The position numbers and the translations under genes are program-made. A DNA stretch of 40,864 nt from Patescibacteria group bacterium (lineage in GTDB: Bacteria > Patescibacteriota > Patescibacteriia > UBA2591 > JAQWAS01), in assembly GCA_028707495.1 (NCBI GenBank), contig JAQWAS010000008.1, positions 1 through 40,864 of the forward strand, written 5' to 3'. Under the pieces are notes generated by a model. It did no database searches, had not been told where the DNA came from, and saw only the letters and a program-made list of their open reading frames with translations. Numbering within the stretch: the first letter of the stretch is position 1; each line of letters opens with the position of its first letter. Shown in pieces: positions 6,566 to 40,864 of this stretch.

Positions 6566-9500
6566 ATGCAAAACAAAAAAAGGGTCACAAAAACAACTTT
6601 TAACAAGCTGATTTATTCAGTTTGTGTTATGGCTCTTGTCCTAGGTACGGGAGTTTTTTTAATGCCGAATGAGGTTGAGGCGAGTAGTTATACATTTACG
6701 GAAGATTTTTGGAATAAAACATATCAAGACAGCGTTTATACAAGCGCTTATTGGGAAAATTATGATTCTGTTAGGCTAACTAAAAATTATATTGCGGATA
6801 ATAATATTCCGTCTGAACAATTAGTTAATACTAACCTTACTGAAGTACAACAAGATCCCGCGGTAGATTCAGATATAAATGGTAATTTTGTAATAGTTTG
6901 GAGAGGTATAAATGAATCAGACAGAACACATGATATTTATAGCCAAAGGTTTGATTATAATGGAAATAAAATAGGTGGTGAATTTAAGGTTAATAATGAT
7001 GTACAGGCTGAACCTGCTTGGCCAGACGTTGCCACAGATGGACGCAATGAAACTGTAATTACGTGGGTTAGCTATGACCAACATGAAACTGGAAGTGGTT
7101 TTGATATTTATGCAAAGAAATATGATTCCTACTTTAATGAAATTCCCGTTTCATCACAGGCTCAAGGTTCTGGCGAGGGGAATGAATTTCAAGTGAACAC
7201 TTTTACAGATGGCTGGCAAATTAATCCGGTCGTGGCTGCAGATGCAAACGGTAATTTTGTTATCGCTTGGACAGACATGGAAAACAATGTGATTAAGGCT
7301 CAAAAATTTGATGCTAATTGCAATAAAATAAGTGGAGAAATCAGCGTAGGAGACACAACAGCAGAGATAACCCCCGCTATAGATATGAATCCGGATGGAA
7401 GTTATATAATTACTTGGCAAAAAAGTACTGGGACAAAAGGAATTTATGCGCAAAGGTTTTATAGTGATGGATATCCTGCTGGCGGAGAATTTAGAGTTGA
7501 CGTGGGTATTACTACTGTTAATGCCCCTACGGATCCAGACATCACTATTAGTAAGGATAATGGTTTTATAATAGTCTGGCATAGTTATGAACCGGGTCAG
7601 GATGTTATCGAGGACGTGGTACGTATACAGAGATTTAATAGTAATGGAGAACGCTTAGGTTCTTCTATTGAAGGACCACATGGTTTTACTTCTCCTGGCG
7701 AAGAAATTAGTCCCCCTAAAGTTATTTATAACCAACACAACTATGATTTTATTGTTATAATGTCTCGTTTAAGGGGGAGTTATCCCAGTGATGAAGACTG
7801 TTGTATTGTAGATGGTTTTCCAAGGAGTGATGATGTAATTGTTCAAAGATATTATAATGATGGTAATGAACATGGCGAAGAATTTAGAATTAGCTCATAT
7901 GAGAGAGGGTTGAGATATGATCCTGTTATTACGGCCGGTAGGCATGATGATTATATAGCAGTTTGGCAAAGTAAACCATATACAATAGAAGGGGAGATAG
8001 AAGGTTTAGAAGATGATTGGGACATTTATTTTCAAAGAATCAATTTAGCAATGCCTCGATATGAAAGGTCAAATATTGCTCAATCCAAAACAATAGATAC
8101 CACAAGCAAAAACATTACTAAGGCAACTACGGTCATAAACTACGACGAACCATGGGGAACTGATATTAATTATTATTTGAGTAATAATGGTGGAAAAAAT
8201 TGGATAGAGATTGCCCCGCGTGAACCAGAGCGTACTTTTGTTACAACAGGTTCTGATTTAAGATGGAAGGCGATTTTACAAACCATAGATGATACCATAA
8301 CACCGCAATTAATTAGTGTTGAGATTTCGTATTCCACCGATGCGGTTCCTCCAACTGAGACCTGCGCATCCTTCACCTATTCCGATTGGAGTGGATGTAA
8401 TAATGGCCAACAAACACGTACTATTTTGACTTCATCTCCTGCCGGTTGTACGGGGGGCAGTCCGGTTTTAACTCAAAGTTGTACACCATCATTGCCACCA
8501 TTACCAACAGGAGTTTGTACCTCCTTCACCTATTCCGACTGGGGTGAGTGTAACAACGGTATAAAAACTAGAACATTGTTAAATTCATCTCCAGAGGGTT
8601 GTACTGGTGGAACACCTATTTTGTCACGTAGTTGTAGTACAGAAGAAGATTTGCCAATTGTAGATTTAACCGATCCATCGACTTATCAAGGGCGAGTTCA
8701 CAATGTTAATGGCGTTTATTTTATCTTAGATAGTATTAAACTTGAACCCAAAGAATATAATTTATCACCAGCTCCATTACTAAACGGATTTATTTATCCA
8801 GAATCGGCTGCAATCTATATCGAGGAATCAAATATAGTTTTAGACGGTAATGGCGCAATTTTAAACGGTGGTAGTTTTGAAGGTCAGGAAGATTATTCGC
8901 ATGCTATTAAAATACATAACGCCAAGAATGTAACGGTTAAGAATTTTGAGATTAAAAACTATGTTTATGGCATTCATGCCGGCGATCATTATGGCCGGGC
9001 AGCTAAAGCAGTTACCAATTCAACTTTTCAAGATAATATTATTCATGATATAAAAACCGCCGCTATAGAAATGTTGTATTATTCAACTAATAATAGTGTT
9101 TTAGATAATGAAATTTATGATATTGGTCCAGGGAAAAATGGACATTCTTATTGTATCTCATTTTTTGGTCAATCCAATTATGGTCGTATAGAGGGTAATA
9201 AATGTAGTGGGTCGGCTGATGTGGGATTAAGAATTTTTGATGGTCCATTTGAAGTTATGAAAAATATTATTATTGACAACGATGGTTTCGATATTTATTC
9301 ATACGGTCATGCCGACAATTATGGTTTCTCTAATGCTTGCGGTTCAACAATTCTATGGAATGATGATGGAGAACAAGGTTGTACTTATATGCCATCTGGT
9401 GATCCAAGTGATATACCAGAAGATATCGATGCTTATCAACAATATTTAGGCGAATTAAAGTTGGCCAATGGCAGATATTATTTTACAAGTGATGATGGTA

Positions 9501-10123
9501 GTTTTAATTCAGCTTTGATTTTTAGTAATCAAGTCGACGATATTAATAAATATTTAAACAAAAAAATAGTTGTCACATTAAAACAAGCAACTGACAATAG
9601 TATAGAAATTTGTAATATTAAAGTTATTGATGAAACTTTAAGGCGTCGCTTGGGTGGTAAATTATTATTACAGGTTGAAAGCCGAGGTAGGGTTTGGTAT
9701 GTTGACAAACAAAAGAACACAAGATATTTGATTGAACAATATAAAGCCTTACCTTTATTCAGAGAATTGTCTTTGGGTATTACTGACGCAGACTTAAGTA
9801 AAATCCCAGTTAATACTAGTACCATTGATCCGAATTTGGACACAGATGGCGATGGCTATTCAGACAAACATGAGATAGAGAATGGTTACAATCCATATAA
9901 TCCAGCTCCAGTTAAATTACAAACAGACGCAAACTTAGCTAATCGATTAAAAGGTCAATTATTGTTACAAGTAGAAGAAGGTGGTCGGGTTTGGTATGTG
10001 CATGAAGATGGTCAGGCCTATCGTGTTGAACCCAAAAATATTTTGGAGATATTCAGAACATTAGCCTTGGGTATTACTAATGAAAATCTAGAGAAAATTC
10101 CTAACAATAGTTTGATTAAATAA
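6566..10123 (+). CDS. large secreted mosaic surface protein
   Basis: A 1185-residue exported protein. A basic start (MQNKKRVTK) and hydrophobic core (about 17-35) ending VEASS form a signal peptide. Residues about 85-500 hold repeats of the form D-x-x-GNFVIVW / DIYxQRFDxNGN-x-xGGEF, typical of beta-propeller-like blades. At about 599 and 651 are two Cys-rich modules (CASFTYSDWSGCNNG, CTSFTYSDWGECNNG) like thrombospondin type 1. Residues about 750-920 form a right-handed beta-helix (NVTVKNFEIKNYVYGIHAGD, NosD/pectate-lyase style). The C-terminus has two copies of a domain, at about 1028 and 1127, with LLLQVE-x-x-GRVWYV and L-x-LGIT-x-x-x-L-x-KIP, separated by a calcium-type loop DTDGDGYSDKHE. 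I recall that domain pair from CPR surface proteins. A role in attachment or carbohydrate binding is inferred. Confidence 0.88.
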   Translation: MQNKKRVTKTTFNKLIYSVCVMALVLGTGVFLMPNEVEASSYTFTEDFWNKTYQDSVYTSAYWENYDSVRLTKNYIADNNIPSEQLVNTNLTEVQQDPAVDSDINGNFVIVWRGINESDRTHDIYSQRFDYNGNKIGGEFKVNNDVQAEPAWPDVATDGRNETVITWVSYDQHETGSGFDIYAKKYDSYFNEIPVSSQAQGSGEGNEFQVNTFTDGWQINPVVAADANGNFVIAWTDMENNVIKAQKFDANCNKISGEISVGDTTAEITPAIDMNPDGSYIITWQKSTGTKGIYAQRFYSDGYPAGGEFRVDVGITTVNAPTDPDITISKDNGFIIVWHSYEPGQDVIEDVVRIQRFNSNGERLGSSIEGPHGFTSPGEEISPPKVIYNQHNYDFIVIMSRLRGSYPSDEDCCIVDGFPRSDDVIVQRYYNDGNEHGEEFRISSYERGLRYDPVITAGRHDDYIAVWQSKPYTIEGEIEGLEDDWDIYFQRINLAMPRYERSNIAQSKTIDTTSKNITKATTVINYDEPWGTDINYYLSNNGGKNWIEIAPREPERTFVTTGSDLRWKAILQTIDDTITPQLISVEISYSTDAVPPTETCASFTYSDWSGCNNGQQTRTILTSSPAGCTGGSPVLTQSCTPSLPPLPTGVCTSFTYSDWGECNNGIKTRTLLNSSPEGCTGGTPILSRSCSTEEDLPIVDLTDPSTYQGRVHNVNGVYFILDSIKLEPKEYNLSPAPLLNGFIYPESAAIYIEESNIVLDGNGAILNGGSFEGQEDYSHAIKIHNAKNVTVKNFEIKNYVYGIHAGDHYGRAAKAVTNSTFQDNIIHDIKTAAIEMLYYSTNNSVLDNEIYDIGPGKNGHSYCISFFGQSNYGRIEGNKCSGSADVGLRIFDGPFEVMKNIIIDNDGFDIYSYGHADNYGFSNACGSTILWNDDGEQGCTYMPSGDPSDIPEDIDAYQQYLGELKLANGRYYFTSDDGSFNSALIFSNQVDDINKYLNKKIVVTLKQATDNSIEICNIKVIDETLRRRLGGKLLLQVESRGRVWYVDKQKNTRYLIEQYKALPLFRELSLGITDADLSKIPVNTSTIDPNLDTDGDGYSDKHEIENGYNPYNPAPVKLQTDANLANRLKGQLLLQVEEGGRVWYVHEDGQAYRVEPKNILEIFRTLALGITNENLEKIPNNSLIK

Positions 10124-10138
10124 ATTCATATCAAAAAA

Positions 10139-10168
10139 ACGGCCTACATCGCGTAGGTCGTTTTTTTT
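10139..10168 (+). terminator. rho-independent terminator
   Basis: Stem ACGGCCTAC/GTAGGTCGT followed by a run of eight T. A-rich sequence before the stem may also let it end the minus-strand trpS transcript. Confidence 0.88.
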
Positions 10169-10180
10169 GATAATTTAAAT

Positions 10181-11161
10181 TTATTTTATCAAGCCAGTCA
10201 ATTTTTTTATTTCAGTCATATTTTTGCTGGCAATTTTTTCGGCTTGTTGCGCGCCTTGATCTAAAGTTTTCCAAACTTGATCAGGTTTTTGGATTAAAGT
10301 TTGATATTGCTTTTGAATTGGTTTTAATAAATCAACAACATTATCAGCTAAAACAGTTTTTAGCTCTGAGTACTTGATTTTATTGGTTTTATATTCTTGC
10401 TCAAATTTATCGGCAGTTTTTTTGTCAGCTACAATTTTTAATAAAGTAAATAAATTAATTACACCTGGACTCATGGTTTTAGAATCTCCAGTATCAGTTA
10501 CTGCTGACATGATTTTTTTTCTAATTATTTCTGGCTCATCAGTTAGGGCAATGTAAGTTTTTTCACCATGGCTTTTGCTCATTTTTTGAGTCGGATCAGT
10601 TAATGACATGATGCGTGGCGCTTGAGTAATGAGTTCTTTAGGCTCAGGGAAATAGTCGCCAAATTTATTGTTAAATTTTTTAGCAATTTTACGAGTTAAT
10701 TCAATGTGTTGGACTTGATCTTCACCAACCGGTACAGCATCAGCTTTATACAATAAAATGTCAGCGGATTGAAGGATGGGATAGGTAAAAAGTCCAGCGT
10801 TAATATTATTTTTGTGTTGTTGAGCTTTGTCCTTAAATTGCGTCATGCGTTCTAATTCGCTGATAGGCAGTAAAGTATTAAAAATCCAAGTCAATTCAGT
10901 GTGTTGAGGGACGTGCGACTGAACAAAAAATATGGATTTTTTAGGATCAATGCCACAAGCTAACAAAGTAGCAGCGGTTTCCAAAATGCGTTGTTGAAAA
11001 TTTTTAGCATCATAATCAACAGTCATGGCGTGCAGATCAACAATTGAATAAATACACTGATATTCCTTTTGGAGTTGCACCCAGTTTTGAATCGCGCCTA
11101 AATAATTACCTAAATGAATTTGACCTGAGGGCTGAATGCCAGAAAAAATAAGTTGAGACAT
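10181..11161 (-). CDS. trpS: tryptophanyl-tRNA synthetase
   Basis: A 326-residue class Ic aminoacyl-tRNA synthetase that charges tRNA-Trp with tryptophan using ATP. The N-terminus reads FSGIQPSGQIHLGNYLGA, where HLGN replaces the HIGH motif in the usual TrpS way. KMSKS follows near residue 195 (DPTQKMSKSHGEK). The GEDQVQHIELTRKIAKKF segment and the SVTDTGDSKTMSPGV-like region (AVTDTGDSKTMSPGV) are also typical. Length is normal for a bacterial TrpS. It lies 9 bp downstream of the RNase J gene and is probably co-transcribed with it. There is no SD before the ATG. Confidence 0.96.
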   Translation of the reverse strand: MSQLIFSGIQPSGQIHLGNYLGAIQNWVQLQKEYQCIYSIVDLHAMTVDYDAKNFQQRILETAATLLACGIDPKKSIFFVQSHVPQHTELTWIFNTLLPISELERMTQFKDKAQQHKNNINAGLFTYPILQSADILLYKADAVPVGEDQVQHIELTRKIAKKFNNKFGDYFPEPKELITQAPRIMSLTDPTQKMSKSHGEKTYIALTDEPEIIRKKIMSAVTDTGDSKTMSPGVINLFTLLKIVADKKTADKFEQEYKTNKIKYSELKTVLADNVVDLLKPIQKQYQTLIQKPDQVWKTLDQGAQQAEKIASKNMTEIKKLTGLIK

Positions 11162-11170
11162 AGATTTAAT

Positions 11171-12865
11171 TTAAAGACTAATAATGACTGGTAAAATTAA
11201 TGGTCGACGCTCAGTTTCTTTAAATAAGAATTTACCAATTTCGTCACGAATTTTATTTTTCAATTGATCTTCATTGCCAGGTTTAGACACGTCTTGATTT
11301 TGAACTAATTGTTTAACTTTATTGCGGACTTGTTCGATGAGTTTTCTATTTTCTTTCATGTAAATAAAACCACGTGAAATAATATCGGGATTATTTAATA
11401 ATTTACCGCTACTTTTATTAACGGTAGCAATAACCACCAACATACCGTCATCAGCCATAGTGCGTCGATCGCGGAGAACAATATTGCTGACATCACCAAC
11501 ACCAAGGCCATCAACCATAATGTCATTAGTACAAACTTTTTTGTTCGTTAATTTAGCTTGGCCGTTTGCAAATTCAACAATTTGACCATTGACTGGAATT
11601 AAAATATTTTTTTCTGGGAAGTTCATGCCTTTAGCTAAGCGTTCGTGGGCCTTTAAAAGAGATAGATTGCCTTCGATGGGAATTAAATATTTAGGACTAA
11701 CCAATTTTAACATTAATTTTAAATCTTCTTGCTTGGCGTGACCACCGGCATGGATATCAACCATTTGATAATGAATTACATCGGCGCCTTTACGATAGAG
11801 ATCATCTTTAAGTCTTTGCACACTAGTTTCATTACCTGGCACAACTGAAGAAGAAAAAATAACCGTATCGTTTTTACCAATTTTAATATCCTTGTGTTCA
11901 TCGTGAGCAATCCGCATTAAAGCGGCTCGATCTTCACCTTGAGCTCCAGTGCAAACGACGATTAATTTATTATCCGGAATATTTTGAGTTTTTCTCAATG
12001 AAATAATAGTATTTTTTTTATGTTTTAAATAGCCAAGCTGTTTAGCAATTTCAACATTAGTTTTCATACTAAAACCCTCAATGGCTACTTTTTTACCTAA
12101 TTTTTCAGCCAACCAAATAATTTGTTGAATACGATTTAAAAGCGAAGCAAAGGTGGCGACAATAATTCTGCCTTTGGCTTGGCGAAAAACTTCTTCTAAA
12201 TTATACTCAATTTGTTTTTCAGTAAATTGATGACCCGGACAATCAGCATTAGTGCTATCAGAAAGCAAAGCTAAAACATTGCGATTTTGAAATTGAGCAA
12301 TTTTAGAGATATCGGGCGGTTCAGAGGCGGTTGGATTCATATCTAATTTAAAATCGCCAGTGTGAATAATTATACCCTGTGGGGTATTAATCGCTACGCC
12401 CATACTGCCCGGAATATTGTGAGTAACCTTAAAAAATTCAAGCCTAAATCCGCCCAAAACCAATCTGGTTGTATTATTAATATTACGTAATCTTAATTTA
12501 ACCGGACAGTTCTTGTAGTCTTCTTGGCGTTTGCGAATAATAGCATTAGTTAAATCGGTGCCATAAATAATGGGATTGCCCAAGTCAGCCATTAAATGTG
12601 GGATACCACCAATATGGTCATAATGAGCATGAGTTATAATTACGCCACGGATTTTATTTAATTTATCTTTGAGATAAGAGATGTTAGGAATAATATAGTC
12701 AATTCCTGGCATATCTTCTTCTGGAAATTGTAAACCCATGTCAATAATAATGATATCATTTTGATTTTCAAGAATAGTCATGTTGCGACCGACTTCTTCC
12801 ATGCCACCAAGAAAAATTAGGCGTAATTTATCATTTTTGTTTTGAATTGTTTTTTGTTTTAACAT
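11171..12865 (-). CDS. rnj: ribonuclease J (metallo-beta-lactamase/beta-CASP)
   Basis: A 564-residue RNase J, a 5'-3' exo- and endoribonuclease of mRNA decay and rRNA maturation. The metallo-beta-lactamase zinc motif is THAHYDHIGG (H79, H81, D83, H84). More ligands lie in VTHNIPGSMG and HTGDFKLD. The beta-CASP region has the expected LLSDSTNAD, and the later HAGGHAKQEDLKLML motif completes the active site. The C-terminal part (about 450-564) matches the RNase J dimerisation domain (VDGLGVGDVSNIVLRDRR). First gene of a two-gene unit with trpS; tRNA-Leu lies just upstream. No SD. Confidence 0.95.
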   Translation of the reverse strand: MLKQKTIQNKNDKLRLIFLGGMEEVGRNMTILENQNDIIIIDMGLQFPEEDMPGIDYIIPNISYLKDKLNKIRGVIITHAHYDHIGGIPHLMADLGNPIIYGTDLTNAIIRKRQEDYKNCPVKLRLRNINNTTRLVLGGFRLEFFKVTHNIPGSMGVAINTPQGIIIHTGDFKLDMNPTASEPPDISKIAQFQNRNVLALLSDSTNADCPGHQFTEKQIEYNLEEVFRQAKGRIIVATFASLLNRIQQIIWLAEKLGKKVAIEGFSMKTNVEIAKQLGYLKHKKNTIISLRKTQNIPDNKLIVVCTGAQGEDRAALMRIAHDEHKDIKIGKNDTVIFSSSVVPGNETSVQRLKDDLYRKGADVIHYQMVDIHAGGHAKQEDLKLMLKLVSPKYLIPIEGNLSLLKAHERLAKGMNFPEKNILIPVNGQIVEFANGQAKLTNKKVCTNDIMVDGLGVGDVSNIVLRDRRTMADDGMLVVIATVNKSSGKLLNNPDIISRGFIYMKENRKLIEQVRNKVKQLVQNQDVSKPGNEDQLKNKIRDEIGKFLFKETERRPLILPVIISL

Positions 12866-31722: not shown

Positions 31723-31749
31723 TTTTAAATAATGCGCTTCGCGCATTTT

Positions 31750-31902
31750 GGCTAACGTTTCCCGATGAAGCGAAGTTTCAATTCTTTCTTCCTTATTATC
31801 AATAAAGAAAAGAAAGGATTGAAATTTGGGTCGGAAGAAAATTTTATTCATTATTATATTAATAAAGGAAATTTTCTGGAGTCGCTTATCGCGGTGTTAG
31901 AC
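31750..31902 (-). repeat. attC-like site A (terminal)
   Basis: Minus-strand boxes: R'' GTCTAAC, R' GTTAGCC. Outer arms CCCGAT-AAGCGA / TCGCTTATCG (plus strand). Inner arms TTTCAATTCTTTC / GAAAGGATTGAAA, then the conserved ATTTGGGTCGGA. It carries no gene and abuts the chromosome. Confidence 0.85.
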
Positions 31903-31920
31903 GTAGTTTTTGTAAACACG

Positions 31921-32541
31921 TTACTTAATTCTTTGGGCAATTACGTTAAGTTTAGTAAAATCAAGCTCTTCTTTTTTTTCGGCTTTTCTCTCATGTCGTT
32001 TTAAGATCTTAAATCCAATGTCATTTAACAAACTTTCGATTTCATCTGAAGCAATGATATTTAGAAATAACTTTTCATCTGGTTTAAATGGTTCGTCTAT
32101 AAATAATTCTTCTGACTGGCCAGACTGCAAGCCGATGTACATAACGCCATCGTCGCTTAACATACGTGAAAAATTTTCTAGAGTTTTTGGAACGTCAACT
32201 TTGGGTATGTGAATAAGCGAGCAAGAAGCAATAACACCATCAAATTTCTTATCTTCAAATTTTAAATGTCTAATATCTTCTAAACGAAAATCAATCTGAG
32301 GATAATTGCTTTTTGCGGTTTCGAGCATTTTCTCGGAAAGGTCAACACCAACCACATTGCAACCTTTTGACGTTGCATATTTAGAATCAATGCCAACTCC
32401 ACAACCAACGTCTAAGATACTAGCGTTTCTAGGTAGAAGTTCCAAAAACTCGTCGAGGTATTCCGAAGGTTCGTTAAATTCATCGGCGTATGCTTTAGAT
32501 ATTTTGTTGTATACATTAACTGCTTTATAGCTATTATCCAT
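31921..32541 (-). CDS. cassette gene: class I SAM-dependent methyltransferase
   Basis: A 206-residue methyltransferase. Motif I is ILDVGCGVGIDSKYA (about 43-57), followed by VVGVDLSEKMLETAK and the motif around FDGVIASCSLIHIPK. The fold is a small generic Methyltransf_11/25 type; the substrate cannot be told. It is the gene of cassette A-B. The interval is framed by a 24-bp near-perfect inverted repeat (GTTAGACGTAGTTTTTGTAA... at the left, its complement ending CGTCTAAC at the right). The orientation agrees with the array. No SD is evident. Confidence 0.88.
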   Translation of the reverse strand: MDNSYKAVNVYNKISKAYADEFNEPSEYLDEFLELLPRNASILDVGCGVGIDSKYATSKGCNVVGVDLSEKMLETAKSNYPQIDFRLEDIRHLKFEDKKFDGVIASCSLIHIPKVDVPKTLENFSRMLSDDGVMYIGLQSGQSEELFIDEPFKPDEKLFLNIIASDEIESLLNDIGFKILKRHERKAEKKEELDFTKLNVIAQRIK

Positions 32542-32606
32542 AGAGAAAAAAGAAGAGCGGTTGTTTAGATTAAACGTTAATATTAGAAAGTGTTTACAAA
32601 AATTTC

Positions 32607-32804
32607 GTCTAACGTCCGCGTGTATCTGAAGTTTTCATCCCGATTAAATTGAATAATTTTGATTATCAGATGCACGCTTTTTGATAGAACTCCACCCAAA
32701 TCCTCATCTATATTAAGGGATGAAAATTTGGGCGGAGGAAAATTGGCACTCCTTAAAGATTTAATTAACGCCAATTTTCCGTAGCTAGATACACGCTGTT
32801 TTGT
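32607..32804 (-). repeat. attC-like site B, with an inverted half-site inside
   Basis: Minus-strand boxes: R'' ACAAAAC (atypical), R' GTTAGAC. Outer arms GCGTGTATCT/AGATACACGC; inner arms TTTTCATCCC/GGGATGAAAA followed by ATTTGGGCGGAGG. A third hairpin is GGAAAATTGGC/GCCAATTTTCC. Between the inner arms lies an inverted partial copy (CAGATGCACGC ... ACTCCACCCAAAT), so the site is compound. Confidence 0.85.
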
Positions 32805-32849
32805 GATGTAAACAGAAATTTCTTTTCCTTAATGTAATTTTTTGGCAAT

Positions 32850-33263
32850 TTATTTTCCCAAGGCGGAAATCAATTCCTCCAAATCGTTATTATCTCCAAT
32901 CTTACTACCTTTGTGCGTGAGTAACACTCCGAGTGTAAAACCATTTTTATCTGTATCTAGTGCTTCTTGTGCACTCGTAGCAAACCATTCGATATCACGC
33001 ATAATTCTTTGTTTTTTTTCCGGATCTATTCCTTCAAGCACAGTAGATAAACGATTTGGAAGATTGATTAAAAGTTGAGCTCTTTCCTCAAGTTTTTGCT
33101 GACGGGTCGTAGTATCTTCTTTTGAGTGAAGTGCGGTATCAGCCTCTTGCTTCAAAGAGCGAAACTTTTCCGCCGTTTCCTTGAGAATTTGAAGAACTGG
33201 CTGAATCGACTCATTTTCTACATTCTCTTGTGGTGGAATGCTACCTTCAAATTTTTCTGACAT
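32850..33263 (-). CDS. cassette gene: helical hypothetical protein
   Basis: A 137-residue, highly charged protein with long helical stretches (ILKETAEKFRSLKQEADTAL, RQQKLEERAQLLINL, DPEKKQRIMRDIEWFATSAQ) that look like coiled coil. No signal peptide, membrane segment or catalytic motif; the family is not recognised. It is the gene of cassette B-C. It is flanked by extended inverted arms: CAGAAATTTCTTT and TTTTTTGGCAATTTATTT at the left end, with complements AAATAAATTGCCAAAAAA and AAAGAAATTTCTG at the right. Confidence 0.7.
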   Translation of the reverse strand: MSEKFEGSIPPQENVENESIQPVLQILKETAEKFRSLKQEADTALHSKEDTTTRQQKLEERAQLLINLPNRLSTVLEGIDPEKKQRIMRDIEWFATSAQEALDTDKNGFTLGVLLTHKGSKIGDNNDLEELISALGK

Positions 33264-33374
33264 AGTTTTTATAGTTAAATTATTAAACTGACTAAATTAT
33301 ATCACAAGCTATGTTCGACCGAAATAAATTGCCAAAAAAATCTTAAAAATAATAAAGAAATTTCTGGCTATTTC

Positions 33375-33477
33375 ACATAACGTTACGAGTATCCGAAGTT
33401 TTTCTGAAGCGGAGCGGAAGAAAAATTTGGGTGGAGGCTTTTGAATAAAAGCCGTAACCGGATACTCGTTGTTAGCT
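33375..33477 (-). repeat. attC-like site C
   Basis: Minus-strand boxes: R'' AGCTAAC, R' GTTATGT. Outer arms ACGAGTATCCG/CGGATACTCGT; inner TTTTTCT...AGAAAAATTTGGGTGGAG; extra hairpin GGCTTTTGAATAAAAGCC. At 103 bp this is one of the compact sites and shows the whole pattern clearly. Confidence 0.88.
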
Positions 33478-33569
33478 GATGTATTCCTTTTCTTTTTTCC
33501 GACAGCAGTCGGAATTGTTTTAAAAAATTTTAAAATTTCTTTTTCCGTTTTGGATTTTGGGCAGAGGGG

Positions 33570-34235
33570 TTAGGGGTGAATTTTGCGAGCCAACCTATTT
33601 TCTTTTAGAAGTTTTACTAATCTCATTGTACCATATCCAGTTATTAGAATTCCTACAATTATGTTCAATATTTGCATAACAATTGTTGGTATTGTGCCTT
33701 TGAGTAAAGAAAAAATCAAAACAGCACCACCCATAAATATCAAAGTTGATAATCCAGTCCCTAGACCAAAAAAATACAGTTCTTTTTTCGTATAATTATA
33801 TTCAATTGCTTTTGTTGAAAACAGACTTGTAAAAAAGACAATGCTCAATGGATTAGAAATCGCAAGTAAAAAAACGGATGTAAAGCTAGAAAAAAGACTT
33901 GATGTATTGATCACACTATCAGAAACTCCGCTACTTAAAGCTCCTTTTATAATTATTCCTCCAAAAATTATTAGAACAATTGAACTAATTGCTGCAAATA
34001 TTTTACTTGTTTTTTTATTTTCGAGCAATTTTCCGATACCAAAAGCAGAAAGAGCAATGTAAATGTATCCAACAATTGTCGCCGCAAAAACTCCCATTAG
34101 CCCATCAAGAATGGTTTTCTGAAGAGTAAGATTAATCACAAAAAAGAAGATTGGTCCAATTGCCAATTGAATTACAAACCCTGTGAATAAACCGTTTTTT
34201 ATAACTCCTAAATTTTTTTTCATTAATTTTTTCAT
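33570..34235 (-). CDS. cassette gene: LysE family transporter
   Basis: A 221-residue membrane protein with about six helices, of the LysE/RhtB amino-acid exporter family. The N-terminal part GLFTGFVIQLAIGPIFFFVINLTLQKTILDGLMG carries the family's G-x-x-x-x-x-x-x-GP-x-x-x-x-V pattern (read in parts). ISNPLSIVFFTSLFS matches the NP motif in the second half. The likely role is export of an amino acid or a small metabolite, substrate unknown. It is the gene of cassette C-D, oriented with the array. Confidence 0.85.
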   Translation of the reverse strand: MKKLMKKNLGVIKNGLFTGFVIQLAIGPIFFFVINLTLQKTILDGLMGVFAATIVGYIYIALSAFGIGKLLENKKTSKIFAAISSIVLIIFGGIIIKGALSSGVSDSVINTSSLFSSFTSVFLLAISNPLSIVFFTSLFSTKAIEYNYTKKELYFFGLGTGLSTLIFMGGAVLIFSLLKGTIPTIVMQILNIIVGILITGYGTMRLVKLLKENRLARKIHP

Positions 34236-34347
34236 TAATTTAGATAAAAAAGTTCCTTATCCCCCTCCTTAAAAAATCAAAAATCTTGTTTTGTTTCCTG
34301 ATTTCAATTCTGACTTTCAACCGTAGAAGAGATAAAAAATGTATGTC

Positions 34348-34833
34348 GCCTAACGTATCAAGTATATGGGAAGTTTTAGCTACGGAGTAGCTAAAATTTG
34401 GATGGAGCTAAAAATATAATTTATTTTCTGTTAATACCTGCTACCAACTCTATCAGTGCACTCAAAGTGAATTTTATCATCGTTGAATACTTCTACCACC
34501 TTATAAGTCCCTTTAGTATATATTTGCTCATTATCCATAAAATGACAAACTTCTAATATTTTAATACTGGCTTTTGGCTTTGACCACTTACCATTACCCA
34601 TAGTTTCGATCAAGGGCACCTCACCCCAGAGCCAATAGCACCTTTGCTCACTTTTTAAAAAAGAATAAATCTTATCTACTTCTAAAACTTCAGGAATACA
34701 CTCCTCAAGTTTTCTATTACCTTCTTTATACTCCTTAATGTTTCTGAGCGCTAACTCAGGATTGAATTCTACTTTTATACCCATAAAAAATAAATTATAT
34801 TTTTAAAGCGTAATCCTATATACTTTGTTATAC
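34348..34833 (-). repeat. attC-like site D, gene-bearing giant palindrome
   Basis: Minus-strand boxes: R'' GTATAAC, R' GTTAGGC. Outer arms AAGTATATGG / CCTATATACTT; inner hairpin TTTTAGCTAC/GTAGCTAAAA then ATTTGGATGGAGC. Third arms CTAAAAATATAATTTATTTT and AAATAAATTATATTTTTAAA enclose the 117-residue gene. The 486-bp site therefore holds a gene between its arms, and the next interval (D-E) is empty. Confidence 0.8.
34431..34784 (-). CDS. hypothetical protein inside attC-like site D
   Basis: A 117-residue soluble protein. The centre reads YSFLKSEQRCYWLWGEVPLI, then KASIKILEVCHFMDNEQIYT and GTYKVVEVFNDDKIHFECTD. The second half looks like a small beta-barrel ending. I recall similar hypotheticals in CPR genomes but know no function. 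It is unusual in lying between the arms of site D instead of in a normal cassette slot. No SD precedes ATG. Composition is AT-rich like most array genes. Confidence 0.72.
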   Translation of the reverse strand: MGIKVEFNPELALRNIKEYKEGNRKLEECIPEVLEVDKIYSFLKSEQRCYWLWGEVPLIETMGNGKWSKPKASIKILEVCHFMDNEQIYTKGTYKVVEVFNDDKIHFECTDRVGSRY

Positions 34834-34866
34834 GACAGTTTGCTGAAGCAGCAAATTTCGTATAAC
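34827..34866. other. empty 40-bp cassette interval D-E
   Basis: Between sites D and E only a palindrome remains: GTTATACGA at the left, its complement TCGTATAAC at the right, and AGTTTGCTGAAGCAGCAAATT in between (AGTTTGCTG/CAGCAAATT). It cannot hold a gene; the cassette's gene is inside site D. Confidence 0.8.
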
Positions 34867-34955
34867 ATCAGGGATAAAAGAAGTTTTCGTAGCGTAGCGG
34901 AGAAAATTTGGGAAAATTGCGAGCCGAGCAATTTTCCTTTTATCCCTTGTTATAT
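34860..34955 (-). repeat. attC-like site E
   Basis: Minus-strand boxes: R'' ATATAAC, R' GTTATAC. Outer arms AGGGATAAAAG/CTTTTATCCCT; inner TTTTC...GAAAATTTGGG; extra hairpin AAAATTGC/GCAATTTT. At 96 bp this is a compact canonical site. Confidence 0.88.
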
Positions 34956-35109
34956 GACCCGAGCGTAACGCAGTGGAGCGAGAGCGCAGCGTGGCTTTAG
35001 CGTATTTTGGTGGCAATTTATCCATATTATTCTAAAAACTTTTATTTCCCGTGAGCGATAGCGAACACATTATTAGGGGGCGAAAAAATTTTGTCGCGAT
35101 AGCGACTCC

Positions 35110-36486
35110 TTATTTTTCCATTGAAATAACTTTGATTTGACAAAGTTCTCTGAATCCAATTACACCATGCTCTCTACCCATACCCGACTTTTTGTATCCT
35201 CCAAATGGGTTACAAGACAACCAGTGGAGAGCATTATTAATTTCAACTGTCCCGGAATTTATTTTCGAGGCGACACCTTTAGCACGTTCCAAATCCTTTG
35301 TAAAAACAATAGAACCTAGCCCATACACGGTGTCGTTAGCAAGAGATATGGCTTCTTCTTCTGTTTCAAAAGTAATTACTGGCAATACTGGACCAAAAAC
35401 TTCTTCATTCCAAACTTGCATGTCTTTGGTTATGCTTGTAAGTAAAGTAGGTAAGTAGAAAGCACCATTCACATCTTTAGGCGAACTTCCTCCAGTAATA
35501 ATTTTAGCTCCTTTATCAAGCGCATCTTTTATCTGGCTTTCTAATAAATCAAGCTGTCTTTTCGCTACTAAACTTCCCATGTCAGTTTCTGGGTTTTCAG
35601 GATCACCAATCTTCTGCGATTCAATTTTTTGCTTCAGAGCCTCAATTAATTTATCAGCGATTGATTCATGAACGATTAATCTCTTTAGGGCGTCGCATGT
35701 TTGCCCGCAAAGCTTGAATCTTTTGGCGTAAATTTTATCAACAATTTTTTCAATATCTACATCCTCGAAAACAACACATGGATTGGAACCACCTAGTTCT
35801 AAAATTGCCTTGATAAATTTTTCTCCTGCCAATTTGAATAATTGTTGTCCGACTTTGGTGCTTCCAGTAAACCAGATCAAGTCAATATTTTCTTGTGCTA
35901 ACTTCCAGCCGACTTCTCCGTCTCCGTAAACCTCGGAAAAAACTCCTTCAGGAAGATTGTGGGAAAGCATAATGTCTTCAATTAACTTTCCAACCAGCGG
36001 ACACTCTTCTGAAATTTTAAAAACTACTGTATTGCCAGCAAGAAGATTAGGAACTACTCCCCAAACGAACATTCCGAACGGATGATTCCAAGGAGTTATA
36101 ACTGCTGCTGTGCCAATGGGCTCATAAATAATTTTATGAATTGACTCGTTATCTTCATGCGTTATCTCATCAGAAAGTGCCGATTCCGCATTATCTAAAA
36201 ACCATTTAATTTTATTTATATGACCATTAACAATTGCCTTACTTTCAGTAATTGCTCTACCAGTCTCTTTTGTTGCTAATATAGCAATTTTGTCAGCGTT
36301 ATCTTGAAAGTCTTGATATATGGGTTTTAGTAGTTCAATCCTTTTTTTTATACTCATTTCTTTCCACATGGTTTTTATCTGATTAGCACGATATACTTTT
36401 TCAGAAATACCTTTGTCTGTTGAGATTTCTATTTCGCCAACTACTTCGTAGTTTTTTGCGGGATTTGTTGATATTAGTTTAGCCAT
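35110..36486 (-). CDS. cassette gene: NAD(P)-dependent aldehyde dehydrogenase
   Basis: A 458-residue aldehyde dehydrogenase, near succinate-semialdehyde dehydrogenase in style. Visible motifs are PWNHPFGMFVWGVVPNLLAGN (substrate channel and Asn), FTGSTKVGQQL (dinucleotide binding), LELGGSNP (general-base Glu), GQTCDALKR (catalytic Cys) and EEVFGPVLPV, ending NPFGGYKKSGMGREHG. All catalytic residues are intact. It is the gene of cassette E-F. Two perfect inverted arms flank it: ATTTTGGTGGCAATTT (35004-35019) with 36601-36616, and GGGGGCGAAAAAATTTT (35076-35092) with 36512-36528. Metabolic enzymes are common integron cargo. Confidence 0.93.
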   Translation of the reverse strand: MAKLISTNPAKNYEVVGEIEISTDKGISEKVYRANQIKTMWKEMSIKKRIELLKPIYQDFQDNADKIAILATKETGRAITESKAIVNGHINKIKWFLDNAESALSDEITHEDNESIHKIIYEPIGTAAVITPWNHPFGMFVWGVVPNLLAGNTVVFKISEECPLVGKLIEDIMLSHNLPEGVFSEVYGDGEVGWKLAQENIDLIWFTGSTKVGQQLFKLAGEKFIKAILELGGSNPCVVFEDVDIEKIVDKIYAKRFKLCGQTCDALKRLIVHESIADKLIEALKQKIESQKIGDPENPETDMGSLVAKRQLDLLESQIKDALDKGAKIITGGSSPKDVNGAFYLPTLLTSITKDMQVWNEEVFGPVLPVITFETEEEAISLANDTVYGLGSIVFTKDLERAKGVASKINSGTVEINNALHWLSCNPFGGYKKSGMGREHGVIGFRELCQIKVISMEK

Positions 36487-36621
36487 AGTAATAGTAATTA
36501 CATTAGTATTTAAAATTTTTTCGCCCCCATTTTGCGTAACGATAGTGAAGCAAAATTTAATAAAATAAAGGGAAATAAAAGTTTTTTCATTTTAAAATTC
36601 AAATTGCCACCAAAATATGTC

Positions 36622-36792
36622 ATATAACATTTCCGCATGATGCGAAGTCCAAATCGATACATTATTAAAATTAATAATAAAAGAGATTTGGATTTGGGTG
36701 AAAGAAATTTATATTCCTTAATTTATTTTGCAGCGGAGCGGAAAAAGTTTAGATTATGTAAATTTCTGGAACCGCATATGCAGGTGTTATAT
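36622..36792 (-). repeat. attC-like site F
   Basis: Minus-strand boxes: R'' ATATAAC, R' GTTATAT. Outer arms CCGCAT-ATGCG / CCGCATATGC-GG; inner TCCAAATC/GATTTGGA followed by ATTTGGGTGAAAG, with a further AT-rich hairpin (TTATTAAAATTAATAA). About 140 bp between the arms hold no gene. Confidence 0.82.
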
Positions 36793-36800
36793 GATGTACA

Positions 36801-37601
36801 TCACAAAATTTCGAGTTTATATAGATTAACTGCGTTAAGAAAAAAAATCTTTTCCTCGGTTTTAGAATCTAACCCTAAATCTTTGATTAACTCTATATGT
36901 TTATCGACAGGGCACATTGGCCAGTCAGTGCCAAACAAAACATTATCAGGTTTTTTCGTAACAGTTTTTTTCAATGTTTGTACAACTAAATCCCAACCTC
37001 CACTAGTTTCTATTACTTCATCATCCGCCATTGCCGAAGTATCGTAATAAATATTTTTCAAGTCTTTGGTAATCTCATAACAATATTCCATCTTAGGCCA
37101 AAAAAAATGTGAAATGACGACTTTTAAGGTTTTATATTTTTCTACGATTTCAACTAGATATTTTGGGTCATTATACTTTGCACAATCATCATCTCCAGTG
37201 TTTACCCCAGTATGAAAAACAACGGGAATATCGTGCTCAGTGCATAAATCATAAACTGGTTGACATTTCTCATCTGTGGGATAAAAGGGGTCGTGTCCTG
37301 GAAAAAGCTTGATAGCGCAAATTTTTTTGGCCATTATCAATGATTCTAGATTTAATATTTGTTTTTCTATGTCTTGAAAAATATTTATGGCTCCCATTGA
37401 AAAAAACTGTTTATCGTCTCCAATGATTTCAAACATGGTTTTCATATCAGCACATTTTGGATTTGGCACGTTATCGGGAATAACAATCGAATAATCAATG
37501 CCGTATTTTTTCATTGATTCTAAAAGTTCTTTTTTTACTTCAAAAAGATTTTTTTTCTCTTCATCTAAGTAGGATATATGTAAATGGCTGTCGATTATCA
37601 T
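36801..37601 (-). CDS. cassette gene: amidohydrolase family (PF04909-type) hydrolase
   Basis: A 266-residue TIM-barrel metal-dependent hydrolase of the amidohydrolase-2 type. The metal site starts MIIDSHLHISYLD (H-x-H on strand 1). Further ligands are in PVVFHTGVNTGDD (His), VVISHFFWPKM (His) and NVLFGTDWPMCP (Asp after strand 8). Such enzymes hydrolyse or decarboxylate small molecules; the substrate is unknown. It is the gene of cassette F-G, whose ends form a 28-bp inverted repeat (GTTATATGA...ACATCACAAAATT and complement). Confidence 0.85.
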   Translation of the reverse strand: MIIDSHLHISYLDEEKKNLFEVKKELLESMKKYGIDYSIVIPDNVPNPKCADMKTMFEIIGDDKQFFSMGAINIFQDIEKQILNLESLIMAKKICAIKLFPGHDPFYPTDEKCQPVYDLCTEHDIPVVFHTGVNTGDDDCAKYNDPKYLVEIVEKYKTLKVVISHFFWPKMEYCYEITKDLKNIYYDTSAMADDEVIETSGGWDLVVQTLKKTVTKKPDNVLFGTDWPMCPVDKHIELIKDLGLDSKTEEKIFFLNAVNLYKLEIL

Positions 37602-37619
37602 AATTTTGTGATGTATTTC

Positions 37620-37717
37620 ATATAACGTTCCAGTATATCTGATGTTTGCCGTAGCGATAGCGGAGGCAAATATGGGTCGAGCGACGGCAGGAACGAGCCA
37701 GATATACTGTGTTGTGC
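37620..37717 (-). repeat. attC-like site G
   Basis: Minus-strand boxes: R'' GCACAAC, R' GTTATAT. Outer arms CAGTATATCTG/CAGATATACTG; inner TTTGCC/GGCAAA followed by TATGGGTCGAG. 98 bp, compact. Confidence 0.87.
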
Positions 37718-37852
37718 GAGGGTGATTTTCTGGAGTGATAACAGAAGAAAATCAAGTGCAACGACCCCGAAGCGTATTTTTCAATATTTTTTCATTCCTT
37801 ATTATTTTGTTGAAGAATTTTATCATTATTTGGAATTTTTATTTTTTTATCC

Positions 37853-38821
37853 TTATTTTAGTTCTAATATTTCAATAGTTGGTGGAATACCTAGTCTCAT
37901 TGGTAAACCTATTTCTCCAATTCCAGCTGTTACAAATACTTTTCCATAATTATTTTCTGTAAAAATGATATTTTCTGTTGATTGAACAGTAACATGTTGA
38001 GGTATTAAATCATACAAGCCTTGATCAAAATTATAAATGCACGGAATCACATCTTTGTATACAAAAGGGATTCTAATTTGTCCTCCGTGTGTATGTCCAG
38101 CAATGGTTAGGTCAGGAATAGAATTGCCATATCTCAGTGTTGTATCTGGATTATGAGTTAAAATAATCAAATTATCGTCTTTTGAAAAATTATCAATTAT
38201 TGAAATATCATCTTCATTTGCCCATCTATCTCCAAGTCCAATGATTTTTATGTTTTTATTTTTAATTATGCTATCTGTATTATGGAGAAACATTACACCA
38301 TTATCTTCTAAAACTTGTTGTAGTTTTTTTTGAATTGGTGGACCAGGTTTTTCACTATCATGATTTCCGAGGACTGCATAAATAGGAACTTTAATATTTT
38401 TTAGGGGAGTAAATAATTTATCTAAATTTTCAGGTGGATAATATGTGAAGTCACCTGGAATTAAAACTGCATCAATATTTTCTATTTCATTAATTTTGCT
38501 CACAACTCTTTCTAGGAAATTTACATCTTTATATACTCCTAAATGCATATCTGAAATAATTACTAATTTTGCAGAAAATCCAACATTAATTTCTGTCGTT
38601 TTTACAAAAATCAAATTTCTTTCTATAAACCTTGCATAAATAAATAACAGAGAAAGTATTAAAAGTAATATTAAAATGATTGACGATATTTTATTTTTTA
38701 AAAGGTTTTTTCTCTTCTTGTATAAAAGAAAAAGTAAAAAAAATAAAAATGGTAAAACAAGATAAGAAGAATAGAAAACAAAATTATGCATTATACTGTA
38801 TTTAAAAAATAAAAATTCCAT
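37853..38821 (-). CDS. cassette gene: membrane-anchored metallophosphoesterase
   Basis: A 322-residue calcineurin-like phosphoesterase of the YkuE type. Residues about 10-70 hold two membrane helices. The catalytic domain has the five family motifs: ISDMHLG (D-x-H), GDFTYYP (GD), LGNHDSE (GNHD), ILTHNPD (H) and AGHTHGGQ (GHTH). It probably acts outside the cytoplasmic membrane on a phosphorylated lipid or nucleotide; the substrate is inferred only from the family. It is the gene of cassette G-H, flanked by inverted arms (TTTTGTTGAAGAATTT and AAATTCTTCAACAAAATT; CAATATTTTTTC and GAAAAAATATTG). Confidence 0.92.
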   Translation of the reverse strand: MEFLFFKYSIMHNFVFYSSYLVLPFLFFLLFLLYKKRKNLLKNKISSIILILLLILSLLFIYARFIERNLIFVKTTEINVGFSAKLVIISDMHLGVYKDVNFLERVVSKINEIENIDAVLIPGDFTYYPPENLDKLFTPLKNIKVPIYAVLGNHDSEKPGPPIQKKLQQVLEDNGVMFLHNTDSIIKNKNIKIIGLGDRWANEDDISIIDNFSKDDNLIILTHNPDTTLRYGNSIPDLTIAGHTHGGQIRIPFVYKDVIPCIYNFDQGLYDLIPQHVTVQSTENIIFTENNYGKVFVTAGIGEIGLPMRLGIPPTIEILELK

Positions 38822-39030
38822 TCCTTTTTAAATTCTTCAACAAAATTCCTTTTGAGAAAAAATATTGAAAAATATGTCGCACAACGTTTCTGTGTATCTG
38901 AAGTTTTTGCCTTTCTTCCTTATTATATTCTAAAATAAAGGAAAGGCAAAAATTTGGGTGGAGTAAAAGAGAAAAATTAAATAATTTACCTTATATTAAA
39001 GCCCTTTTTCAATTTTTTTGGTCGCCGAGC

Positions 39031-39059
39031 TTGACATAGATTAAATAATCTGCTATACT
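39031..39059 (+). promoter_or_regulatory. sigma70-type promoter inside attC-like site H
   Basis: TTGACA at 39031-39036 and TATACT at 39054-39059, spacer 17 bp, between the third arm of site H and the small gene. Confidence 0.75.
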
Positions 39060-39110
39060 AAATAATCAGTAATTTTGCTGACAAATTGAACCCTAACAAA
39101 GGAGGAAGAA

Positions 39111-39266
39111 ATGGATCTTACAATGCTTGGCGTCGGATTTATAGTCGGACATTTGCTTGCTCGGTTAATCCGAAAAAATGATCCGAACAAAGTGTTTGAT
39201 TCCATCATGATCGGCATTGTTTTGGTTCTCATCCTGGGAAGCCGATACCATTTTTTCGGCGGCTAG
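39111..39266 (+). CDS. 51-residue membrane protein inside attC-like site H
   Basis: ATG at 39111, 5 bases after the SD AGGAGG, opens 51 codons to TAG at 39264. Two hydrophobic segments (MLGVGFIVGHLLARL and IMIGIVLVLILG) flank a short charged loop (IRKNDPNKVF), so it is a membrane hairpin. No family is recognised; a toxin, holin-like or transport-accessory role is possible but unsupported. It has its own promoter and terminator and reads against the array direction. Codon use is GC-richer than the surrounding array DNA. Confidence 0.7.
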   Translation: MDLTMLGVGFIVGHLLARLIRKNDPNKVFDSIMIGIVLVLILGSRYHFFGG

Positions 39267-39288
39267 GTTTAACCAGCCAGCCCCACAC

Positions 39289-39330
39289 GAGCCTTCGCGG
39301 AAATAAAATCTGCGAGGGCTCTTTTCTTTA
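39289..39330 (+). terminator. terminator of the 51-residue gene
   Basis: Stem GAGCC-TCGC-GA / TC-GCGA-GGCTC with small mismatches, then TTTTCTTT. It lies within attC-like site H. Confidence 0.75.
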
Positions 39331-39404
39331 AAAAAATTGAAAAAGGCTTATTAAAAATAAAGAATTATTTAATTTTTCTCTTTTTACGGAACCAGATACA
39401 CAGT

Positions 39405-39515
39405 GTTATCGGATGTAGCGACGGATTATATAGTTTTACGAACGGAGTATCACCGTTCTTTTTTAGTTGCTCAAATTTTTAATACTCATCATTACAAGTC
39501 GCTATTTCCGATAAC
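39405..39515. other. gene-less 111-bp cassette interval H-I
   Basis: The ends are inverted repeats (GTTATCGGA and TCCGATAAC; GTAGCGAC and GTCGCTA-type). A small AT-rich palindrome lies between. No reading frame of note; the cassette's gene is inside site H. Confidence 0.75.
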
Positions 39516-39747
39516 GTATCGGGATATGAGAAGTTCAGTCCCGATTTAATTAGCTAATATTTGAATTATCTCACGATTTATTAGAAATTACCAACTATTT
39601 ATTACTACCAGTAAAAGGGACTGAATTTGGGCGGAAAGAAATAATTTTTTTGTTATTTTTTTATTTTTTGGCAATACCTATTGATTTTTTTGGCTAATTG
39701 TGCTTAACTGTAGGGTCTATCAAATTCAACAAAAAGGAGGATAGCAG

Positions 39748-40200
39748 ATGGACATCAGGTCAAAGTTGGATTATCCGGCTGGGGCGCTCACAAATTTTGC
39801 TCCGTTTACTTTCGAGATAGACGGTGTAAAATGCGCTTCAATGGAGGGTTTTCTTCAGTCACTCAAGACTGACGACCCGCTCGTTCAAAAAGAGATTTGC
39901 CAATTGGTCGGCATCGAAGCCAAGAACTGGGGCAATGAACACAACATCATCTGGAAAGAAACTCAAACGCTATACTGGCAGGGTCGTGAATATGACCGCC
40001 AAGGTGACGAGTACCAGAAGCTTATCGACAGGGCATACGATGAACTCGCCAAAAACGAGGAATTCAGAAAAGCACTGTTGGCAACTGGGCAGGAGGTGTT
40101 GACCCACTCAATTGGCAAATCGGATCCGTTCGAAACAATCCTGACGGAAGACGAATTCTGTTCAAGGCTCATGAAGCTTAGGAGCAAAATTACTTCCTAA
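39748..40200 (+). CDS. NADAR/YbiA-like protein (DUF1768) inside attC-like site I
   Basis: A 150-residue protein that I place in the NADAR superfamily from its N-terminal half: YPAGALTNFAPFTFEIDGVK, then CASMEGFLQSLKTDDPLVQK and KEICQLVGIEAKNWG. The C-terminal half (LYWQGREYDRQGDEYQKLID, FRKALLATGQEVLTHSIGKS) fits the helical family end. NADAR proteins act on ADP-ribose-linked or riboflavin-pathway N-glycosides, and some occur in phage-defence loci. The activity here is inferred. The SD AGGAGG is 6-7 bases before ATG, and a terminator follows. It reads against the array and is GC-richer than its surroundings. Confidence 0.8.
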   Translation: MDIRSKLDYPAGALTNFAPFTFEIDGVKCASMEGFLQSLKTDDPLVQKEICQLVGIEAKNWGNEHNIIWKETQTLYWQGREYDRQGDEYQKLIDRAYDELAKNEEFRKALLATGQEVLTHSIGKSDPFETILTEDEFCSRLMKLRSKITS

Positions 40201-40215
40201 TGGCAGGAAGTCTGT

Positions 40216-40254
40216 CGGACGTCACAACCTACGAGGTTGAGACGTCCGTTTTTT
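40216..40254 (+). terminator. terminator of the NADAR-like gene
   Basis: Stem CGGACGTC/GACGTCCG with an inner AACCT/AGGTT stem, followed by TTTTTT. Confidence 0.88.
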
Positions 40255-40303
40255 ATTGCCAAAAAATAACAAAAAAATTATTTCTTTCCGCCTCATATCC
40301 CGT

Positions 40304-40350
40304 GTTAGGCGATGTGCTTTATCCTTTTCTCTTAAAGCATTTCGCCTAAC
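40304..40350. other. empty 47-bp cassette interval I-J
   Basis: Ends GTTAGGCGA and TTCGCCTAAC are complementary, with an inner TGCTTTA/TAAAGCA pair and a short T/C-rich loop. No gene fits; the cassette's gene is inside site I. Confidence 0.8.
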
Positions 40351-40416
40351 GTTTCTGCATGATCCGACGTACTTTTGAATGGAGTGAAAAAGTATGTTGG
40401 ATATGCGGTGTTATAC
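40344..40416 (-). repeat. attC-like site J
   Basis: Minus-strand boxes: R'' GTATAAC, R' GTTAGGC. Outer arms CTGCATGATCCGA / TTGGATATGCGG (mismatched); inner CGTACTTTT/AAAAAGTATG. At 73 bp it is the shortest site. The conserved ATTTGGGYGGAG block is missing; only TGGAG remains in the loop. Confidence 0.8.
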
Positions 40417-40443
40417 GTCGTAATAAAAAGTCGATTCCTTTTT

Positions 40444-40683
40444 TTATAGTTTATTTTTTATAATGTAATCTAAAGCTGTTATTGCTTTTTTAAGCGCTGT
40501 TTCGTATGTATATCCTTCACCACTACCTTCCTGACCAAGATCATTTTTTATAGTAACATCAGTCTTTTGTCCACGTTGGGATGTTTCTGTCACGACATAT
40601 CCTTTTTCTTCCAATTCTTTTTTAAGATTGTCTAATTCTTGATTTGGTGTTGATTGCGGTTCTCTTTGTTCTAGTGTTTTCAT
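40444..40683 (-). CDS. cassette gene: small hypothetical protein
   Basis: A 79-residue protein if the ATG at 40683 is used; an in-frame ATG at 40701 would add six residues. No SD marks either. It begins with a Gln/Glu-rich stretch (QREPQSTPNQELDNLKKELE). A compact alpha-beta domain follows: GYVVTETSQRGQKTDVTIKN, then GYTYETALKKAITALDYIIK. The family is not recognised. It is the gene of cassette J-K, whose ends form a 20-bp perfect inverted repeat (GTTATACGTCGTAATAAAAA and complement). Confidence 0.7.
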   Translation of the reverse strand: MKTLEQREPQSTPNQELDNLKKELEEKGYVVTETSQRGQKTDVTIKNDLGQEGSGEGYTYETALKKAITALDYIIKNKL

Positions 40684-40738
40684 AATTTTATAAGTTACCA
40701 AAATTATTAAAAAATATAAGGAGGATTTTTATTACGAC

Positions 40739-40864
40739 GTATAACGTTTACGCATCATCTGAAGTTTTCATCCCGACTTAGCGGAATAAACTTTTGCTTT
40801 CAGGCTATGCTTTGTTTAATTATCTCTACCCAAACCTTCATCAGACTAAGGGATGAAAATTTGG
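40739..40864 (-). repeat. attC-like site K, cut by the window edge
   Basis: Minus-strand R' GTTATAC. The left arm ACGCATCATCTGAAG and inner arms TTTTCATCCC/GGGATGAAAATTTGG match the site B pattern, including an inverted half-motif (CTCTACCCAAACCTTCATC) between the inner arms. The right half lies beyond the window. Confidence 0.8.

Follow-up and report, generated by a model that had tools for sequence, protein, structure and literature searches.

Inverted arms framing cassette genes in an integron-like array of Patescibacteria are probably split attC stems

In most integron cassettes, the two ends pair with each other over 9 to 11 nt (Bouvier et al. 2009, PMC2727003). We analyzed a window of 40,864 nucleotides (positions 1 to 40,864 of contig JAQWAS010000008.1, Patescibacteria assembly GCA_028707495.1) whose cassette array resembles those of class 1 and chromosomal integrons (PMC2727003) in its R''/L''/L'/R' layout, its predicted G|TTRRRY break, the location of the partner box in the same cassette, the orientation of the genes away from the integrase and the better folding of the bottom strand. 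Unlike those cassettes, the Patescibacteria ones self-pair over 20 to 75 nt, outside the canonical limit, carry a GATGTA/GAAATA junction and opposed side hairpins, hold genes inside attC loops, show the motif AAATTTGGGYGGAG in their branched inner attC and are associated with an integrase without the IntI insertion. Long self-pairing is known in kind and extreme in degree, and the Patescibacteria system is best filed as a new integron variant. Integrons in Archaea (PMC9668308) likewise appear as attC clusters in MAGs of a little-studied lineage, usually on contigs that lack an integrase, but they carry IntI; a word search of the main text of that paper returned no mention of Patescibacteria or CPR. 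Another report (eLife 2020, PMC7790495) links the shift toward single-strand recombination with the gain of the I2 helix, and the system described here offers a natural experiment on whether cassettes need the IntI insertion to recombine as single strands. No published description of such a system in Patescibacteria, Parcubacteria, CPR or Falkowbacteria turned up in a literature search, with preprints and most subscription papers lying outside the search. The system is apparently undescribed and would represent a large integron reservoir in ultra-small bacteria.

The array occupies positions 31745-40864 of the window as one row of alternating intervals. An A interval runs from a left box (RYYYAAC) to a right box (GTTRRRY) and is attC-like, and a B interval, which holds the cassette genes, extends from a right box to the left box that follows. 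We delimited 10 B intervals and 11 A sites, the latter being imperfect attC-like hairpins with R and L boxes that separate the cassettes. All features are given on the + strand unless noted. Hairpin 1 (R''-L''...L'-R', 31750-31902), with boxes GGCTAAC/GTTAGAC, forms the left end of the array and scored 35.9 bits with model R1. The same model gave 50.9 bits for hairpin 2 (32607-32804), 101.7 bits for hairpin 3 (33375-33477), 83.8 bits for hairpin 5 (34860-34955), 42.2 bits for hairpin 6 (36622-36792), 94.7 bits for hairpin 7 (37620-37717) and 71 bits for hairpin 10 (40344-40416). Hairpin 11 (40739-40864) is cut by the contig end, and a near-copy of it (67779-67905) ends contig C6 (G000). Since both contigs terminate in nearly identical attC sequence (window 40733-40864, C6 67774-67905), the assembly is broken at repeats, and several arrays may be one.

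The remaining attC-like hairpins hold genes in their loops. Hairpin 4 (34348-34833) encloses a 117-aa gene on the minus strand (34431-34784) between arms at 34409-34427 and 34787-34805 (19/19 complementary). Hairpin 8 (38879-39411) encloses a small gene (39111-39266) between arms at 38965-39019 and 39330-39384, and hairpin 9 (39509-40310) a GP30.3-family gene (PF08010, 39748-40200) between arms at 39630-39661 and 40261-40292 (32/32). The latter two genes lie on the +view strand, as do small genes in attC loops at L141:3950-4165 and L077:4320-4538 (placement unsure in L077). These small +view genes in attC loops are oriented opposite to normal cassette genes, and most have a promoter-like site and a terminator of their own. 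Hairpin cassettes without any gene were also found, of 40 bp (34827-34866), 111 bp (39405-39515) and 47 bp (40304-40350). The hairpin architecture is common to slot intervals and attC intervals, as the first-pass annotation had proposed.

That annotation had also described inverted arms around cassette genes between 32798 and 38885. All the arms that it quoted were present, and further pairs lay beyond this range. The methyltransferase cassette has arms at 31896-31922 and 32587-32613 (27 nt, 89% complementary), its left arm scoring 22 with its own partner and no higher than 11 with any other right arm, and the 85-aa cassette has arms at 40410-40429 and 40726-40745 (20/20, fold z = -6.4). The amidohydrolase gene had been assigned a 28-bp pair; its arms exist (36786-36810 and 37602-37626), but they measure 25 nt at 92% complementarity (joined-arm fold z = -7.5), and the 28-nt pair belongs to the 137-aa gene (32798-32825 and 33354-33381, 82%, z = -5.7). 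The left arm of the aldehyde dehydrogenase cassette (34949-35092) consists of the box, an inserted hairpin module (34959-35003) and helices at 35004-35019, 35038-35050 and 35076-35092 separated by a side hairpin. Its right arm (36512-36628) consists of 36512-36528, a side hairpin, 36570-36582, 36601-36616 and the box, giving the pairs 34949-34958/36619-36628, 35004-35019/36601-36616, 35038-35050/36570-36582 and 35076-35092/36512-36528. In the phosphoesterase cassette, the left arm (37711-37846: box, hairpin module, 37775-37793, 37804-37846) pairs with the right arm (38804-38885) at the boxes (37711-37719/38877-38885), at 37775-37793/38856-38874 (19/19) and at 37804-37846/38804-38846 (43 nt, 74%). 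Left arms with a hairpin module between box and arm form a second type, seen at 34959-35003 and 37720-37774 of the window and in many other left arms, with the module sequence GACCCGA..GCGCAGCGTGG or GAGGGTGA..GCGCAGCGTCCCC. Only in the LysE cassette (33471-34354) does this pattern fail, as the two arms do not match. Its left arm (33471-33545) belongs to a shared arm family (GTTAGCTGATGTATTCC...) that elsewhere frames N6-methylase, AAA_13/GmrSD, Fic, radical SAM and MFS genes.

We then compared the arms of 81 non-redundant intervals drawn from 21 genomes, that of the window and 20 others. In this sample, the complementarity flanking the genes begins exactly at the attC core boxes and extends for about 20 to 75 nt. 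Box-anchored arms of the window scored 10.35 with their own partners and 3.13 with the arms of other intervals, a difference reached in 1 of 20,000 permutations. Across the 81 intervals, the mate score was 26.1 for own arms, 14.4 for those of other intervals and 14.7 for shuffled arms (0 of 20,000 permutations). Chance palindromes might have been suspected in AT-rich DNA, the region having a GC content of 34% and a loose repeat search of 10.9 kb returning 183 inverted pairs, but these controls and the exact anchoring at the boxes refute that explanation, which we regard as having practically no chance of being right. Indeed, shuffled sequence, the comparison that the first-pass annotation had named as decisive, did not reproduce the arms. 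The inverted arms around the cassette genes are confirmed as real. Self-pairing had a median length of about 40 nt and reached 70 nt and more among the 73 of 102 cassettes that align. Long arms are not universal, with 34 of the 81 intervals (about 40%) above the 99th percentile of mismatched arms; some intervals without clearly long arms are chimeras, have module-bearing left arms or reflect a missed attC, which some B intervals may span. In a class 1 control from three plasmids, which had a higher GC content, 4 to 13 consecutive nucleotides paired (mean, 8.3), and long arms were found in 0 of 13 cassettes, bearing out for class 1 the earlier remark that ordinary cassettes do without them.

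The arms follow the boxes in a fixed register. After GTTxxxx come GA, a conserved mismatch (TG on the left and AA on the right, both read the same way), TA or a similar dinucleotide and then the cassette-private arm, with a conserved junction GTTxxxxGATGTA / GTTxxxxGAAATA over the 81 intervals. Beyond 13 nt, the arm sequences differ among cassettes and match their own partner only. In 15 of the 26 testable cases, the two arms carried opposed side hairpins of different sequence at the same position, mostly with GATA, GAA or GTTA loops on the +view strand. The architecture of the arms is conserved across the class. The arms had been taken to be distinct from the attC boxes; instead, they continue the same stem. 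Because the complementarity is in register with the boxes, each pair of arms is probably the outer stem of the attC that belongs to that cassette, a stem that would be whole in the excised circle and that recombination has divided between the two ends of the cassette in the array. Integrases of the integron type break at G|TT. With a break at this position, the boxes and arms flanking a gene would stem from one circle and the two boxes of an array attC from two cassettes. As expected, the four variable core-box letters were all equal across the gene in 47 of 81 intervals, compared to 7% for unrelated cassettes and 12 of 94 across the attC.

Read onward from the gene, the free circle would pass through the right arm, the RYYYAAC box, the inner attC hairpins, the GTTRRRY box and the left arm before returning to the gene. 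Recombination at G|TT (AA|C on the folded strand) would open the circle within the stem and place the stem halves at opposite ends of the cassette in the linear array, where they frame the gene. The folded single-stranded bottom strand of the circle would be captured at attI by the XerA-like enzyme. A stem of 20 to 75 bp instead of 9 to 11 may make the attC of an incoming circle more stable where the genome is low in GC, and may lengthen the duplex at the cleaved box for this integrase. Since the array attCs would lose the outer stem upon integration, excision would start from a weaker hairpin, and the arms may favor integration and retention over excision. In DNA folding, the re-formed circle attC was more stable than the array attC in 46 of 55 cases, by a mean of 13.6 kcal/mol that depends on the 70-nt flanks used. 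Strong sequence evidence argues for the fold and the split-stem history, while the activity and directionality of the system are what we infer from them. More tentatively, and with less than even confidence, we suggest a class-wide integron lineage of Patescibacteria that uses folded single-stranded attC DNA and a XerA-like recombinase without the IntI insertion, the split stem replacing the insertion and switching direction toward capture.

We next considered which strand folds. The DNA mini-hairpin GCGNAGC is unusually stable. It occurred 50 times on the +view strand of the arrays and 4 times on the complement (9 versus 6 in chromosomal DNA), and GCGNNAGC showed a similar bias (23 versus 4 in arrays, 4 versus 3 in chromosomal DNA). 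Hairpins with GNA/GNNA loops thus sit on the strand antisense to the genes, since 99 of 100 cassette genes lie opposite to the +view strand. The +view strand also folded better than its complement in 51 of 55 cases, and the joined arms folded with z = -3.9 to -7.5. The better-folding strand takes the place of the classical bottom strand and points to single-stranded DNA, not to RNA or terminators; of the roles first offered for the arms, single-strand folding is the best supported. Counts of G-T wobble mismatches, tried as a further strand test, went in the expected direction (40 versus 27) and were not significant (p = 0.14). Extrahelical bases of L'', considered as an orientation marker, gave a weak signal that does not fix the orientation: an extra G was found only in attC 1, 6 and 10, in the opposite arm relative to gene direction.

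The strand bias bears on the idea that the arms are two-way terminators, or structures protecting the 5' and 3' ends of the mRNA around each gene. The arms do lie just outside the coding regions, and T-rich DNA follows some hairpins, but an RNA role predicts the other strand: the conserved mismatch and the loop types favor the antisense strand, so the mRNA folds worse. Moreover, the arms run on from recombination boxes in register, and we counted 9 terminator-like sites against 6.1 +/- 2.4 in shuffled sequence, with no consistent placement at the arms. We consider this role unlikely, and the earlier suggestion of two-way terminators is not supported. Still less probable is a family of gene-carrying transposons with the arms as terminal inverted repeats. 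A gene between inverted repeats looks transposon-like and one arm family is common to several cassettes, but the cassette-specific pairing described above speaks against it. The cassettes of the window contain no transposase. In these arrays, cassettes and attC hairpins follow one another in turn, head to tail, beside a tyrosine recombinase and attI.

Genes might also have entered the tip of an existing hairpin cassette, the stem being the landing site instead of a substrate for recombination and the arms recording the birth of the cassette. The gene-less hairpin cassettes, found in the window and in L140 and L141 beside attI, fit such an event, as do the genes within attC loops with long arms and the unrelated genes framed by one arm family in several genomes. 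However, no hairpin was found in both a gene-bearing and a gene-less form, recombination between cassettes could equally give shared arms, and tip insertion alone leaves the box agreement and the strand bias unexplained. We regard it as a possibility that is rather doubtful, and one that can be true together with the split-stem explanation. The proposal that the arms record how cassettes form is retained in part: under the split-stem explanation they would record which two ends shared one circle, whereas gene entry at tips is only possible. Each cassette keeping both stem halves, the history of the circles would be legible from the array.

On their right, the arrays end at the gene of a XerA-like recombinase of about 270 to 285 aa that is directed away from them, and an attI-like site (box-AAC TCGTTTATATGCGAA) is kept upstream of it in many lineages, between the integrase and the first cassette. 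At 25 loci, with Cohnella L192 set aside, all 47 attC matches near a recombinase were upstream of it and on its strand, and cassette genes pointed away from the integrase in 99 of 100 cases. The linked recombinases resemble XerA, XerC and XerD (NF040815, TIGR02224, TIGR02225) in length and exceed the NF040815 cut-off, but differ in their setting, next to an attI-like site and to a cassette array, and in clustering in the tree (11 changes versus 19.1 in shuffles, 0 of 500). The resident recombinases scored 195 to 234 bits with TIGR02249, below its cut-off of 265, since the IntI-specific insertion is missing. In the genome of the window, the recombinase lies at the end of contig C14, which ends in the first cassette, and we infer its link to the window array. 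A TIGR02249 IntI (436 bits; G000:C17, L006:2594-3580) was rejected as the array integrase: its higher-GC gene lies, unlinked to the array, on a short contig of 3.8 kb that differs in composition and has no attC of this type. It is possibly a binning contaminant, and no other TIGR02249 IntI was found in the genomes of the order.

A covariance model built from ten sites, all from the genome of the window, matched 13 of 26 genomes in the order and 131 of 286 in the class, and some distant matches may be false; a pattern search of the family gave matches in the genome of the window only. Hosts include Falkowbacteria, Buchananbacteria, Kuenenbacteria, Moranbacteria, Uhrbacteria, Peregrinibacteria and Wolfebacteria. 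The genomes are nearly all draft MAGs with contigs that break inside arrays, the closed Wolfebacteria chromosome CP011209 being complete. Two cassettes of the window, LysE (33570-34235) and 85-aa (40444-40701), recur side by side in contig C5, in a different order (L035:9173-10000). The same attC type, arms and recombinase were seen in a contig binned as archaeal (L217, Pacearchaeota MAG BS150m-G67), by transfer or mis-binning. Finally, Cohnella endophytica (L192, Bacillota) has seven weak, regularly spaced attC-like matches on the minus strand (7612-11802) near a XerA-like recombinase.
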